A stretch of 64,000 bases of DNA, from assembly GCA_038400315.1 (NCBI GenBank), contig CP151667.1, positions 372,001-436,000 on the forward strand. Direction: 5' to 3'. Within the stretch, counting starts at the first letter, position 1. The number at the start of each line of letters is the position of its first letter. Both the position numbers and the translations under genes were made by a program. Positions 56,805 through 64,000 of this stretch are shown here, piece by piece. The notes beneath the pieces were generated by a model that searched no databases, had not been told where the DNA came from, and was given only the letters and a program-made list of their open reading frames with translations. This stretch comes from Isosphaeraceae bacterium EP7. Its GTDB lineage: Bacteria > Planctomycetota > Planctomycetia > Isosphaerales > Isosphaeraceae.

Positions 56805-59081
56805 ATGGAACGTCGAGCGATTTCTGTCCGAGGAATCGTCCAAGGGGTGGGCTTCCGTCCCTTCGTTCACCATCTCGCCTCGAGGTACGGACTTCGTGGC
56901 TTCGTGAGGAATCAGACCGACGGGGTGCTGATCGAGGTGGAGGGAAAAGGTCGCTCACTGGACCGGTTCTTGACCGAACTGACGTCCCAGCCGCCGCCAT
57001 TGGTGCAAATCGACGAAGTCCGCTGGGTGGCCCGAAGGCCTCGCGGCGATCCTCTCTTCCAGATTAATCTCAGCACCAACGACGCGACCGGCGTGGTCTT
57101 CCACTCGCCTGATGTCGCTACGTGCGACGACTGTCTCGTTGAACTGTTTGATCTGCGTGACCGGCGGTATCGGTATCCTTTCCTGAATTGCACCAACTGC
57201 GGCCCGCGTTTCACGATCATCCGTGGCGCCCCCTACGACCGCGAGCGGACGACGATGGAGTCGTTTGCGATGTGCCCCGCGTGCCTCGCGGAGTATCAGG
57301 ATCCGAGCAACCGTCGATTCCATGCCGAACCGATCGCCTGTCCCGCGTGCGGTCCTCGGTTGCAGGCCCTCGACGCGCATGGCCAATCGATCTCGTCCGA
57401 AGATCCGCTGGCTGCGGCGGGCGCCGCGTTGCGTCAGGGGAGGATCCTCGCCCTCAAGGGCCTGGGGGGTTACCACCTGGCTTGCCTCGCGACCGACGGG
57501 CGGGTCGTCTCGGAGTTGAGACGCCGCAAGCATCGCGATGAGAAACCGTTTGCCATCATGGTGCGCGATCCGGCGGAGGCCCGTCGAATCGCCGAGCTTT
57601 CCCCGGCCGAAGAGGCGTTGCTGGTTTCCCGGCGACGACCGATCGTCTTGCTCCGTCGACGTGCCGGCGTCGACGTGGCCGACTCGGTTGCTCCCGGGAC
57701 TCGCGAACTCGGCCTGATGCTGCCTTACACGCCATTGCACCACCTCTTGCTCGATGAGCTCGGGGCGACTCCTCTGGTGATGACCAGCGGCAACCGGGCC
57801 GACGAGCCGATTGCCTACGACGATCACGATGCGCAAGCTCTCCTTTCCGGCATCGCAGACCTTTACATGACCAATAATCGATCGATCCACATGCGATGCG
57901 ATGACTCGGTCACGCGTTTTGTCGCGGGCGATGAGATGCCGATCCGCCGATCACGTGGCTATTCCCCGCAACCATTGAGGCTTCCCATCGCCTGCCTGAG
58001 GCATACGCTGGCGCTCGGCGGGCAACTGAAAGCGACCTTTGCACTGGGACGCGATCGCCTTGCCATTCTGAGCCATCACATCGGCGATCTCGACCACTTC
58101 GAAGCGTACCGGTCGTATACCGAGGCCATCACGCACTACGAACGACTCTTCGCCTTTCGGCCTGAATTCCTGGCGCACGACTTGCATCCGGATTATGCTT
58201 CGACGCGCTACGCAGCAGAGCACCCTGCCCTGGTGCTGCTTGGGGTGCAGCATCATCATGCGCACATTTCAAGTTGCATGGCCGAGCATGGCCTGAACGA
58301 GCCCGTCATCGGCGTTGCTTTTGATGGGACGGGTTATGGGGCCGACGGCGCGGTCTGGGGCGGCGAGTTCCTGACGGGAGACTACCGCGCGTTCAGGCGT
58401 GCGGCGCACCTGATGTACGTTCCCATGCCAGGCGGGGATCAGGCGATCCGAGAGCCGTGGAGGATGGCCGCCGCCCACCTCGTCAATGCTGGGTATGATC
58501 TTTCGCAACTCCGCGAATACGTTCACGCAACGACGCTGGCCGGTGTTCATCAGCAGATCGAGCGTCGATTCAACGCCCCGTTGACGTCGAGCGTCGGCCG
58601 ACTCTTCGACGCCGTCGCGGCACTGGCCGGCGTGCGCCAACGGGTCAGCTATGAAGGCCAGGCGGCGATCGAACTCGAAGGATTGGCATCGACCGTCTCG
58701 GACGACGGAGTCTATCCGTTCGCGATCGAGTGCGGTTCGAGCCTCGTCATCGACACACGACCGCTGATTGCCCAGGTGGCCGAGGAGGCCCGCAACGGCT
58801 GCGAGGCGTCGGTCATCGGCCGCCGATTCCATTCGACCCTGGTTGAGATGATCGCCCGAGTCTGCTCGCGCTTGGCCGAGGAGACCGGGATCCGCACGGT
58901 TGTCCTCAGCGGCGGCGTCTTCATGAACGTTTTGCTGACGACCGAGACGGTCGCGAGGTTGACGCGCGACGGGCTCCGGGTCTACCGGCACCGGAGAGTT
59001 CCGACCAACGACGGAGGGTTGTGCCTGGGTCAGCTCGCCATTGCGGCCGCGTGGCAGGAGTCAGGGGTGGTCTCAGGATAG
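56805..59081 (+). CDS. hypF: Carbamoyltransferase HypF, [NiFe]-hydrogenase maturation
   Basis: A 758-residue protein. The N-terminal acylphosphatase domain has VRGIVQGVGFRPFVHHLA, zinc fingers follow with Cys107/110, 129/132, 157/160 and 179/182, then the YrdC-like domain (ALKGLGGYHLACLA, DEKPFAIMV, PYTPLHHLLLDELG), and the Kae1-like C-terminal domain (VQHHHAHISSCMAEHG, GVAFDGTGYGADGAVWGGEF, SGGVFMN). It converts carbamoyl phosphate and transfers the carbamoyl group to the HypE C-terminal Cys, the source of the CN ligands of the active site. It is the first gene of hypF-C-D-E, 10 nt before hypC. Confidence 0.97.
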   Translation: MERRAISVRGIVQGVGFRPFVHHLASRYGLRGFVRNQTDGVLIEVEGKGRSLDRFLTELTSQPPPLVQIDEVRWVARRPRGDPLFQINLSTNDATGVVFHSPDVATCDDCLVELFDLRDRRYRYPFLNCTNCGPRFTIIRGAPYDRERTTMESFAMCPACLAEYQDPSNRRFHAEPIACPACGPRLQALDAHGQSISSEDPLAAAGAALRQGRILALKGLGGYHLACLATDGRVVSELRRRKHRDEKPFAIMVRDPAEARRIAELSPAEEALLVSRRRPIVLLRRRAGVDVADSVAPGTRELGLMLPYTPLHHLLLDELGATPLVMTSGNRADEPIAYDDHDAQALLSGIADLYMTNNRSIHMRCDDSVTRFVAGDEMPIRRSRGYSPQPLRLPIACLRHTLALGGQLKATFALGRDRLAILSHHIGDLDHFEAYRSYTEAITHYERLFAFRPEFLAHDLHPDYASTRYAAEHPALVLLGVQHHHAHISSCMAEHGLNEPVIGVAFDGTGYGADGAVWGGEFLTGDYRAFRRAAHLMYVPMPGGDQAIREPWRMAAAHLVNAGYDLSQLREYVHATTLAGVHQQIERRFNAPLTSSVGRLFDAVAALAGVRQRVSYEGQAAIELEGLASTVSDDGVYPFAIECGSSLVIDTRPLIAQVAEEARNGCEASVIGRRFHSTLVEMIARVCSRLAEETGIRTVVLSGGVFMNVLLTTETVARLTRDGLRVYRHRRVPTNDGGLCLGQLAIAAAWQESGVVSG

Positions 59082-59090
59082 GAGTCGCCG

Positions 59091-59342
59091 ATGTGCCTCG
59101 GGGTCCCCGGAAGAGTGGTCGAGACCTACCAAGAGCACGACGTCTTGATGGGCCGAGTCGAGTTCGGCGGGGTCTATAAACGGGTCTGCCTGGAGCATGT
59201 CCCCGAGGCACGAGTTGATGATTATGTCCTCGTCCATGTCGGGTTCGCCCTCTCGCGGATCGACGAGGTCGAAGCGCATCGGGTGTTCGCGTTTCTGAAG
59301 GAGATGGACCAACTCGACGAGTTGGAGGCATCCTCGCCATGA
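59091..59342 (+). CDS. hypC: Hydrogenase assembly chaperone HypC
   Basis: An 83-residue protein starting MCLGVPGRV, with the essential Cys2 next to the start Met, and ending in an acidic helix. It carries the Fe(CN)2CO unit with HypD and delivers it to the large subunit. The start follows hypF by 9 nt, and its stop overlaps the hypD ATG (ATGA). Confidence 0.95.
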
Positions 59343-60505
59343 AATACCTCGACGAATATCGAGACGGCGCGGCGGCTGAGAAGCTCGCGGCGGCAATCGC
59401 ACGCACCGTCACTCGCCCATGGACGATCATGGAGGTTTGCGGCGGCCAGACGCATTCCATCGTGAAGTATGGGATCGATCGGATCTTACCCCCCGAGGTC
59501 GAACTCGTGCATGGGCCGGGGTGCCCGGTTTGCGTGACCTCACTCGAGATGATCGACCGGGCGCATGCGATCGCCTCGAAGCCCGACGTCATTTTCTGCT
59601 CCTTCGGCGATATGCTCCGCGTTCCGGGCTCGCGTGGCGACCTCTTGCAGCTCAAGTCGCAGGGGAGCGACGTACGGATCGTCTACTCCCCTCTCGACGC
59701 CGTGAACCTGGCGGCGGCCAACCCGTCGCGGCAGGTCGTCTTCTTCGCGATCGGGTTCGAGACTACGGCGCCCCCGAACGCGATGGCGGTTTGGATGGCG
59801 AAGCGTCGAGGACTGACCAACTTCAGCGTCCTGGTCTCGCATGTGCTTGTGCCGCCGGCGATGGCCGCGATTCTCGAGTCGCCCGGTAACCGCGTCCGGG
59901 GGTTCCTGGGGCCGGGGCACGTCTGTGCCGTGGTCGGTACGAGCGAGTACGTGCCGATCGCCGAACGTTACCTCGTGCCGATCGTCATCACGGGCTTCGA
60001 GCCGCTCGACCTTCTCGAAGGGGTGCTCAGGACCGTCAAGCAACTCGAGAGCGGGCGTGCGGAGGTCGAGAACGCGTACGCCCGAGCCGTCCGCTCCGAA
60101 GGGAATCCCGCGTCGAGAAGGCTCATCGACGACGTCTTCGAAGTCTGCAACCGCAAGTGGCGAGGGATCGGAATGATCCCGCAGAGCGGATATACTCTCC
60201 GCCCCGAGTACCGCGAGTTCGACGCCGAGCGCAGATTCGAGGTCGCTGGGATCGAGACGCACGAATCCTCGATCTGCATCAGCGGAGAGATCCTCAAGGG
60301 GAACAAGAAGCCTCACGACTGCCCGGCCTTCGGTCGGCTCTGTACGCCGCAAAACCCGCTCGGCGCGACGATGGTCTCCTCCGAAGGTGCTTGTGCCGCC
60401 TATTTCGCCTACGGTCGGCATCGAGAGGCGTGGCCTAATGAATCGATCGTTCCTGTCGAAGACCTGGCCCCCCTCGTGGCCAGCGGGGAGGGCGTCGGCT
60501 CATGA
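59339..60505 (+). CDS. hypD: Hydrogenase maturation Fe-S protein HypD
   Basis: A 388-residue protein. [12 protein letters not shown] holds the conserved Cys34 and GPGCPVCVT holds Cys62 and Cys65. The C-terminal region has conserved CISGEILKG and DCPAFGRLC with the Fe-S-binding Cys. It is the scaffold on which Fe(CN)2CO is built, working with HypC and HypE. It is coupled to hypC and hypE by 4-nt overlaps on both sides. Confidence 0.96.
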
Positions 60506-61590
60506 CTGATCGCCGTTCGACGATCGATGTCGGACTCCTTGGGGCCTGTCCGGTCCCCCTGTCGCGGTACGACCGGATCGTGCTCGGGCACGGTGGCGGT
60601 GGGTTGCTGACTGCCGAACTCATTCAGCGAGTCTTCCTCCCCGCGTTCGACAACGATGTGCTCGACGCACTCGAGGATCAGGCCACGCTCCGACTCGGCG
60701 GGGATAACGGTGTAAAGGCTCCTCGAATCGCCTTCTCCACCGATTCGTTCGTCGTCCGACCGCTCTTCTTCCCCGGTGGCGACATTGGCAAGCTCGCGGT
60801 CCACGGGACCGTGAACGACCTGGCGGTCGGCGGTGCTCGTCCACTCTTCCTGTCGGCGGCATTCATCCTCGAAGAGGGGCTGCCGATCGCCGATCTGAAA
60901 CGAATCGTCGCCTCGATGCGGTCTGCCTGCGATGAGGCGGGAGTGGTGCTCGTGACCGGTGATACCAAAGTCGTCGACCGGGGCAAGGGTGATCAGGTTT
61001 TCATCACGACCGCGGGGATCGGCCTTGTGCCCGAGGGCCGTTCGCTCTCGATCCGGTCGGCTCGGGCGGGCGATTGCCTCGTGGTATCCGGGACGATCGG
61101 GGATCACGGGATCGCCATCATGTCAGTACGCGAGGGGATCGAATTCGAGACCGTGCTCGAAAGCGATACCGCCCCGCTGAACGACCTCGTCCGAATCATG
61201 CTCGACGCCTGCCCCTCGATCCGAGCGATGCGCGACCCGACCCGAGGCGGCGTGTCGAGTGCCTTGAATGAGCTGGCCGAGGCGTCTCGCGTGGGAGTCA
61301 AGCTCGACGAGGCGTCGATCCCGGTCCGTTCCGAGGTCCGAGGTGCCTGCGAGATGCTCGGGCTCGACCCCTTGTACGTTGCCAACGAAGGTAAGCTGAT
61401 TGCCGTCGTCCCCAGCGAGGATGCAGAGCGGCTCGTCACGGTCATGCGATCGCACCCATTGGGCCGGGACGCGGCCCTGATTGGCAAGATCGTGGCCGAG
61501 CATCCGGGCATGGTCACCATGAGATCGCTCGTGGGAGGCGAACGGGTCGTCACCCTGCTTTCAGGGGAACAATTGCCGCGCATCTGCTGA
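60502..61590 (+). CDS. hypE: Hydrogenase maturation protein HypE
   Basis: A 362-residue PurM-like ATPase. [55 protein letters not shown] and [17 protein letters not shown] are the family motifs. The protein ends in LPRIC, the C-terminal Cys that receives and dehydrates the carbamoyl group to thiocyanate. It begins with ATGA overlap to hypD. Length (about 340-360) is normal. Confidence 0.97.
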
Positions 61591-61636: not shown

Positions 61637-62072
61637 ATGAGCTCCGCCTTGAAACACGTGAAGGTCAAGGAGCCCGAGCCCAAGAGGACCGCGTGGCAGG
61701 TCATGTACCACGAGATCATCGAAGGGCTGGGCGTGCTTGATCGGCTGTCCTTCGCACTGTCGATCTCCAGCCTGGCGGCGGGGCTGGATCTGGACTGCGG
61801 CCCATTCTCCATGGCGTTCGTGCTGACCGATGTCGATGGGAAGCGACCGCAAGTCTTTGGTCAATGCCTACGTCAAAGTGTGGCTCATCTCTGCGGCCAT
61901 CGGGCCAGGTGGCCTCCATCACGTGGCCTTTGGGACCGTGGAGATCTTCGCCGGGCGGAGAGCGCCGCTTCCCCGGTTTGGCCACTTCCTTCTCCGGTCG
62001 AGGCTGGGCAAGATCATCGGAGGGAGCTTAATCGTCGCCTTGATCGAGTGCGGTCATGCGAGACCGGACTGA
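61637..62072 (+). pseudogene. Decayed formate/nitrite transporter (FNT) gene, deleted and frameshifted
   Basis: In the first frame, from the ATG at 61637, PKRTAWQVMYHEIIEGLGVLDRLSFALSISSLAAGLDLDCGPFSMAFVLTDVDG matches the N-terminus of FNT-family channels (EIxEEGLxELxRxSxxLxxSGLxAGLDxGF). From ~61857 the next frame gives LVNAYVKVWLISAAIGPGGLHHVAFGTVEIFAG and FGHFLLRSRLGKIIGGSLIVALIECGHA, the FNT C-terminus (HHxIxGSVEVxAG, LGNIxGGVxxVALLNYGHA). The middle ~120 residues of a normal ~270-residue channel are missing. So this is a relic, not an intact hydrogenase gene. It sits 46 nt after hypE and 47 nt before the small-subunit gene. Confidence 0.75.
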
Positions 62073-62119
62073 CCTAACCCGCTCTTCCTGAGGGTCCCAC
62101 AAGCGAGAGGAGTCGGATC

Positions 62120-63193
62120 ATGGCAGAAGCGACGGTCCCCTACGGACGAAAGACGCAACGAGCGTCTGCCGTCAAGGAAGTTCACATTCTCTGGATCACG
62201 GCCGGTCTCGGCTGCGATGGCGACTCGGTCTCGATCACGGCGGCCACCCAGCCCAGCATCGAGGATGTCCTGCTCGGCGCCATTCCGGGGCTCCCCAAGG
62301 TCCACCTTCATAATCCCGTGCTCGCCTTCGAAAATGGCGATGAGTTTATGAGCTACTGGTATCGGGCCGACGAGGGCCGGCTCGAGCCATTTGTGCTGGT
62401 CGTCGAAGGGTCGATCCCCAATGAGAAGATCAAGGAGGAAGGGTATTGGGCCGCGCTCGGTACGGACAAGAAGACCGGGCAGCCGATCACGACCTGTGAG
62501 TGGATCGACCGTCTCTCCCCCAAGGCCACGGCCGTCGTGGCGATCGGCACCTGCGCGACCTACGGCGGCATCCATGCGATGGAGGGGAACCCCACCGGCT
62601 GCATGGGCCTGCCCGACTACCTCGGCTGGCACTGGAAATCCAAGGCGGGCCTGCCGATCGTCTGCGTGCCGGGCTGTCCCGTTCAGCCCGACAACTTCAT
62701 GGAGACGCTCCTGTACTTGCTTTACCAGCTGGCGGGTCTCGCGCCGATGATCCCGCTGGACGACTGCCTCCGGCCCACCTGGCTCTTCGGCAAGACCGTG
62801 CACGATGGTTGCGACCGCGCGGGGTACTACGAAGAGGCCAATTTCGCGACCGAGTACGGGTCTCCGAAGTGCCTGGTCAAGCTCGGCTGCTGGGGGCCGG
62901 TGGTCAACTGCAACGTTCCCAAGCGAGGCTGGATGGCTGGCATCGGGGGCTGTCCCAACGTCGGTGGGATCTGCATCGGCTGTACGATGCCGGGGTTCCC
63001 CGACAAGTTCATGCCGTTCATGGACGAGCCGCCAGGCGCACGACTGTCATCGACCGCGATCGGGTTGTACGGCCGGATCATCCGAAAACTCCGCCACTGG
63101 ACCATGGACACGGCCAACAAGGAGCCCAAGTGGCGTCACAATCGTCCCGAGTTGACCACCGGATACCGCCCTCAAACACCCGTCAGGTCATAA
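62120..63193 (+). CDS. hhyS: [NiFe]-hydrogenase small subunit, group 1h (actinobacterial) type
   Basis: A 357-residue Fe-S subunit. The start ILWITAGLGCDGDSVSITAATQPSIEDVLLGAIPGLPKVHLHNP is specific to group 1h/5 enzymes. Cys32 and Asp35 (C-D-G-D) stand where other groups have CxxC; in the Ralstonia eutropha enzyme of this group Asp is one ligand of the proximal 4Fe-4S cluster. Other Cys ligands (GTCATYGG, CVPGCPVQPDNF, CLVKLGCWGPVVNC, CIGCTMPGFP) are present. No Tat signal precedes the mature start, as is usual for this group, so it would be cytoplasmic or loosely membrane-associated. It oxidises H2 at very low concentrations together with the large subunit. Confidence 0.93.
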   Translation: MAEATVPYGRKTQRASAVKEVHILWITAGLGCDGDSVSITAATQPSIEDVLLGAIPGLPKVHLHNPVLAFENGDEFMSYWYRADEGRLEPFVLVVEGSIPNEKIKEEGYWAALGTDKKTGQPITTCEWIDRLSPKATAVVAIGTCATYGGIHAMEGNPTGCMGLPDYLGWHWKSKAGLPIVCVPGCPVQPDNFMETLLYLLYQLAGLAPMIPLDDCLRPTWLFGKTVHDGCDRAGYYEEANFATEYGSPKCLVKLGCWGPVVNCNVPKRGWMAGIGGCPNVGGICIGCTMPGFPDKFMPFMDEPPGARLSSTAIGLYGRIIRKLRHWTMDTANKEPKWRHNRPELTTGYRPQTPVRS

Positions 63194-63205: not shown

Positions 63206-64000
63206 ATGGCCATCGATGTCACCCCCGAGAAAGACGTTCGCGCCTCGGCCGGCAACCTGGTCGAGATGTCCTGGGATCCGATCACCCGGATCGTGGGGAG
63301 CCTGGGGATCTACACGAAGATTGATTTCGCGGCCCGCAGGGTCGCCGAATGCTATAGCACCTCGTCGATCTTCCGGGGCTACAGCATCTTCATGAAGGGC
63401 AAAGACCCCCGCGACGCCCACTTCATCACGAGCCGGATCTGCGGGATTTGCGGGGATAATCACGCAACCTGCGCGTGTTACGCTCAGAACATGGCCTTCG
63501 GCATCCGCCCGCCCAACATCGCCGAATGCATCGTTAACCTCGGCGAAGCGGCCGAGTACATGTTTGACCATAACCTGTACCAGGACAACCTGGTCGGCGT
63601 CGACTTCTGCGAAAAGATGGTCAAGGAGACCAACCCTGGCGTTCTCAACCTGGCCGAGCGGACCGAGTCGCCCCACGCTGAACTGCACGGCTACAAGACG
63701 ATTGCCGACATCATGCGCGCCCTCAACCCGTTCACCGGCACATTCTACCTGGAAACCCTCCAGATGAGCCGGATGACCCGCGAGATGTTCTGCCTGATGG
63801 AAGGGCGGCACGTTCACCCCTCGACACTCTACCCTGGAGGCGTTGGCACAGTCCCCACGGTCCAACTCTTCACGGACTACCTCGTTCGGCTGATGAAGTA
63901 CGTCGAATTCATGAAGAAGGTCGTGCCGCTCCATGACGACCTGTTCGACTTCTTTTACGAGGCCCTGCCGGGCTACGAGGAAGTGGGTCGACGGCGGATC
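63206..64000 (+). CDS. hhyL: [NiFe]-hydrogenase large subunit, group 1h type (3' end cut by window edge)
   Basis: The first 265 codons of the catalytic subunit. MSWDPITRIVGSLGIYTKIDF is the N-terminal signature, and SRICGICGDNHATCACY carries the L1 motif RxCGxC with Cys79 and Cys82, two of the four nickel ligands. The C-terminal motif (DPCxxCxxH) and processing site lie outside the window. A good AAGGAGAG precedes the ATG at 63206. It follows the small-subunit gene by 12 nt. Confidence 0.95.
   Translation, partial: MAIDVTPEKDVRASAGNLVEMSWDPITRIVGSLGIYTKIDFAARRVAECYSTSSIFRGYSIFMKGKDPRDAHFITSRICGICGDNHATCACYAQNMAFGIRPPNIAECIVNLGEAAEYMFDHNLYQDNLVGVDFCEKMVKETNPGVLNLAERTESPHAELHGYKTIADIMRALNPFTGTFYLETLQMSRMTREMFCLMEGRHVHPSTLYPGGVGTVPTVQLFTDYLVRLMKYVEFMKKVVPLHDDLFDFFYEALPGYEEVGRRRI

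Follow-up and report, generated by a model that had tools for sequence, protein, structure and literature searches.

A probable YfdC-type FNT pseudogene located between hypE and hhyS of the group 1h [NiFe]-hydrogenase operon of Isosphaeraceae bacterium EP7

A gene for a formate/nitrite transporter (FNT) inside a hydrogenase operon is known from Escherichia coli, where FocB is encoded in the hyf (hydrogenase-4) operon (PMC11841067). The YfdC members of the family were reported, in a survey of FNTs, to lack genetic linkage with a specific metabolic enzyme, and the same work describes an Asn in transmembrane segment 6 (TM6) that is invariant across the FNT family (PMC5525234). Operons of group 1h [NiFe]-hydrogenases are known from Acidobacteria, Planctomycetes, and others (PMC8027828); a literature search for a link between group 1h hydrogenases and FNTs yielded no paper.

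Here, we analyzed a window of 64,000 nucleotides from Isosphaeraceae bacterium EP7 (contig CP151667.1, positions 372,001 to 436,000), in which the space between hypE and hhyS holds two FNT-like parts. We consider it very probable that positions 61637-62072 represent a decayed gene for a YfdC-type FNT channel, formerly part of a hypFCDE-FNT-hhySL operon. The genes and parts are the following:

56805..59081, plus strand: hypF, intact (TIGR00143, E 5e-240)
59091..59342, plus strand: hypC, intact (TIGR00074, E 6e-19)
59339..60505, plus strand: hypD, intact (TIGR00075, E 9e-149)
60502..61590, plus strand: hypE, intact, flanking the relic on the left (TIGR02124, E 3e-138)
61637..61850, plus strand: N-terminal part of the FNT relic, with start codon, cytoplasmic N-terminus, and TM1 (MSSALKHVKVKEPEPKRTAWQVMYHEIIEGLGVLDRLSFALSISSLAAGLDLD...); FNT profile 37.4 bits, tblastn
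61637..62077, plus strand: residual open frame of 146 aa, with TM1 followed by an out-of-frame tail; no Pfam match as a whole
61845..61860, plus strand: approximate deletion junction of the relic, with about 120 codons gone (TM2, Omega loop, TM3, TM4) and a frame change of +1; alignment with the G010 FNT
61851..62072, plus strand: C-terminal part of the FNT relic, with TM5, S-loop, and TM6 in the next frame and the stop codon at 62070-62072; PF01226, FNT profile 51.9 bits, alignment
62120..63193, plus strand: hhyS, hydrogenase small subunit, intact, flanking the relic on the right (hydrogenase small-subunit models)
63206..64000, past the window end, plus strand: hhyL, hydrogenase large subunit, intact in the genome with 601 aa (PF00374, E 2e-62; L022:11207-13009)

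The relic matches the FNT family in both of its parts. The C-terminal part (61830-62072) matched Pfam PF01226 with an E value of 0.0036 over profile positions 166-237 of 240, which is below the gathering score; a Pfam search with the N-terminal part alone gave no match, and a PDB search with the C-terminal part returned chance matches only. The bit scores listed above were obtained with a class-specific profile built from 11 intact planctomycete FNTs, for which the top score among 500 dinucleotide shuffles, each read in six frames, was 4.1 bits. Furthermore, the N-terminal part matched intact FNTs by tblastn with E values down to 8e-10. With the intact FNT of G010, a genome of the same family, as the tblastn query, residues 1-45 and 167-236 were colinear on either side of approximately position 61851, with a frame change of +1. 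In the G010 numbering, residues ~77-202 are absent from the relic, and about 120 residues are lost; the breakpoint is exact to within a few codons, and the junction bases can be read from either side. A second loss, an in-frame deletion of 4 residues, lies between TM5 and TM6. FNTs have six TM segments, an Omega loop, and an S-loop pore; since TM2 to TM4 and the Omega loop are absent, the relic counts as an FNT pseudogene rather than as a working member of the family. Profile, tblastn, and alignment thus agree with the first-pass annotation, which had recognized, from the letters of the DNA, the two ends of an FNT in different frames with the middle missing, had placed them between hypE and hhyS, and had the coordinates right; both pieces do match FNT proteins.

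The surrounding operon is a group 1h [NiFe]-hydrogenase operon, as judged from the HhyS identities (81-90% to Singulisphaera, Edaphobacter, and other soil bacteria; 90% for the hhyS of Singulisphaera sp. GP187) and from the NifU-like and DUF5947 accessory genes. Downstream, the genes for the NifU-like, DUF5947, and DUF6084-like proteins, the maturation protease, and hypB are free of stops. The hypB of this genome (L022:17000-18165) shares only about 41% identity with its G010 counterpart. No hypA was detected in the genome by tblastn with the G010 protein, and hypA is weakly conserved in the relatives. A search of the whole genome revealed no further FNT.

An intact FNT at the same locus was found in relatives, as the first-pass annotation had envisaged, although its distribution is patchy. 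G010 has an intact FNT of 284 aa between hypE and hhyS (PF01226, E 6e-48), and G475, which belongs to another family of the class, likewise carries an intact FNT there. In G580 (G580:C132; L150, L144), the FNT between hypE and hhyS is split by a frame change and lacks about 23 residues around TM3. The same slot of Schlesneria sp. Umea3_bin-0292 (L078:9421-9982, also G561) holds what is left of an FNT gene, with its frame changed at a poly-T run close to TM1; this copy stops after approximately residue 105 and is without the C-terminal half. The lesions in G580 and Schlesneria differ from that of the relic, and the one in G580 is a second, independent lesion at this slot. Both genomes are draft metagenome-type assemblies, and part of the FNT damage in them could be assembly error. 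Altogether, hypE immediately precedes hhyS at 18 loci in the class, and FNT sequence lies between the two genes in 5 of them (2 intact, 3 broken). The FNT profile found no trace in the hypE-hhyS gaps of G037, G038, G009, G607, G525, and G648, and neither did tblastn in the short hypE-hhyS gaps of other planctomycetes. The gaps in G037 and G038, the Singulisphaera-type genomes that are closest by hhyS, span 370-420 nt and are FNT free. When the nearest group 1h loci of other phyla, 80 in all, were examined, an FNT near hhyS was found in Schlesneria alone, and none of the remaining planctomycete FNTs adjoins hyp or hhy genes. As side observations, the gap of G037 (L002 and L003 are the gaps of G037 and G038) contains repeated CCCCGGAGGGGCGACCGT-like inverted motifs that resemble small dispersed repeats; G616:C283, G639:C388, and G073:C6 have hhyS matches with one in-frame stop, which may be decaying hydrogenases or edge effects; and G013 and G554 each carry two diverged hhyS copies.

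The copy in the window bears further signs of decay. It covers 38 columns that do not vary among nine close intact FNTs and keeps only 19 of them, the TM6 Asn being among those changed. In a leave-one-out comparison, every intact FNT retains 22 constant columns out of 22 to 25, and the relic 16-18. The nearly invariant Asn of TM6 (FocA Asn-262) is replaced by Lys, so that GN of the intact copies reads GK; the LHH motif near the C terminus is retained. In the FNT tree, the branch of the relic measures 1.75 substitutions per site, compared to 0.06 for hhyS of the same operon. The decay is not advanced in every respect: the N-terminal part has an intact start codon with a ribosome-binding-like site (GGGAGG) just upstream, and base composition is little decayed, with a third-position GC of 0.86 and 0.77 in the relic versus 0.77-0.83 in the neighbour genes. 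Since the third-position GC is still high, the decay is not very old.

The intact start codon and ribosome-binding-like site would also fit a re-use of the fragment as a small membrane protein with TM1 only (the frame of 146 aa) that anchors or regulates the hydrogenase, as would its co-directional location in the operon and the high third-position GC of the N-terminal part. We nevertheless regard such a re-use as improbable: TM1 has drifted away from the conserved residues, the tail past the junction is out of frame, and a search of the 80 nearest group 1h loci and of the other hypE-hhyS gaps gave no homologue. Moreover, the C-terminal part is still FNT-like in the other frame, which is what chance survival would give.

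Even less probable is an FNT gene that is really intact and looks broken through an error of sequencing or assembly. The junction is known from the assembled sequence alone; however, base-calling error cannot remove about 120 codons, conserved positions beyond the junction are also damaged, and the contig is 7.0 Mb long with clean neighbouring genes. The frame change thus goes back to a deletion, and the earlier view that the FNT is decaying here is borne out by the loss of about 120 residues, the change of half of the constant positions, and the loss of the TM6 Asn. Chance resemblance to an FNT, to which the weak plain Pfam match might point, is refuted by profile scores of both parts far above the 500 shuffles, by the correct order of the parts, and by the existence of syntenic intact genes.

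In the hhyS tree, the five FNT bearers are scattered, each beside FNT-less lineages, and five changes are needed to account for them. Because the slot is shared, a single old insertion followed by several losses, or a transfer of the entire operon, is favoured over five insertions. Any timing of the FNT gain and loss is tentative, as the closest hhyS relatives, G037 and G038, show no FNT trace. Loss of the FNT has occurred repeatedly with the rest of the operon intact, and hence, the channel seems to be optional. We also considered descent of the relic from the G010 copy, which the FNT tree cannot show, as the relic sits on a long unresolved branch.

In our model, the FNT of the intact relatives is a putative small-anion channel of the inner membrane that would be co-produced with the group 1h uptake hydrogenase, as its family and position suggest. 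In the lineage of the window, an internal deletion of roughly 360 nt took out TM2 to TM4 and the Omega loop and shifted the frame, so that no channel can form, and point changes and a small deletion afterwards struck the remaining FNT parts, as the sequence shows. The rest of the operon is still open, and therefore, the hydrogenase of this organism can presumably do without the channel. The remaining start codon and ribosome-binding-like site may still yield a dead peptide of 146 aa.

A tentative idea, which we hold to be rather unlikely, is that some atmospheric-hydrogen hydrogenases of planctomycetes have a YfdC-type anion channel as a true partner in function. If it were true, it would be the first metabolic linkage for the orphan YfdC channel subfamily; as a guess, such a partner might move formate or a different small anion that serves maturation or mixotrophic energy supply. 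The first-pass annotation expected an intact relative to link formate or nitrite transport to this hydrogenase. Its first half holds, with an intact FNT in the slot, but the channel is of the YfdC type, and formate or nitrite would be no more than candidate substrates even in the intact relatives.

The pseudogene itself is ordinary. The arrangement hypE-FNT-hhyS is a mildly new point, because the published FNT survey saw none of the YfdC members linked to other genes. By way of the relic, intact copies were found at this locus, and with them a repeatable link of a YfdC-type FNT with the group 1h hydrogenase operon, a modestly interesting, patchy gene neighbourhood for a subfamily previously without a reported operon partner.

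In comparison with the described systems, the intact copies resemble YfdC FNTs (PMC5525234) in the Glu after LFT, the Arg before SELF, and the Gly at the TM4 position. By alignment, the Omega loop of those of G010 and G475 reads GRSELFTEQT and their TM4 AGWLMG; with the diagnostic positions placed by motif, the residues matching Ser-92, Asn-172, and Gly-86 of FocA are Glu, Gly, and a basic residue, respectively. The relic shares the C-terminal LHH motif with the YfdC proteins and differs from them in being without TM2-TM4 and the TM6 Asn; the planctomycete gene differs in its location inside a hydrogenase operon. The latter is reminiscent of FocB in E. coli, likewise encoded within a [NiFe]-hydrogenase operon (PMC11841067), although FocB belongs to another FNT subfamily and the hyf operon is one of formate hydrogenlyase, whereas the operon described here encodes a group 1h uptake hydrogenase, and no formate dehydrogenase was found in it. 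With the described group 1h operons (PMC8027828), the locus has in common the hyp genes, hhySL, and the genes for the NifU-like protein, DUF5947, and the maturation protease; what sets some planctomycetes apart is an extra FNT gene between hypE and hhyS.
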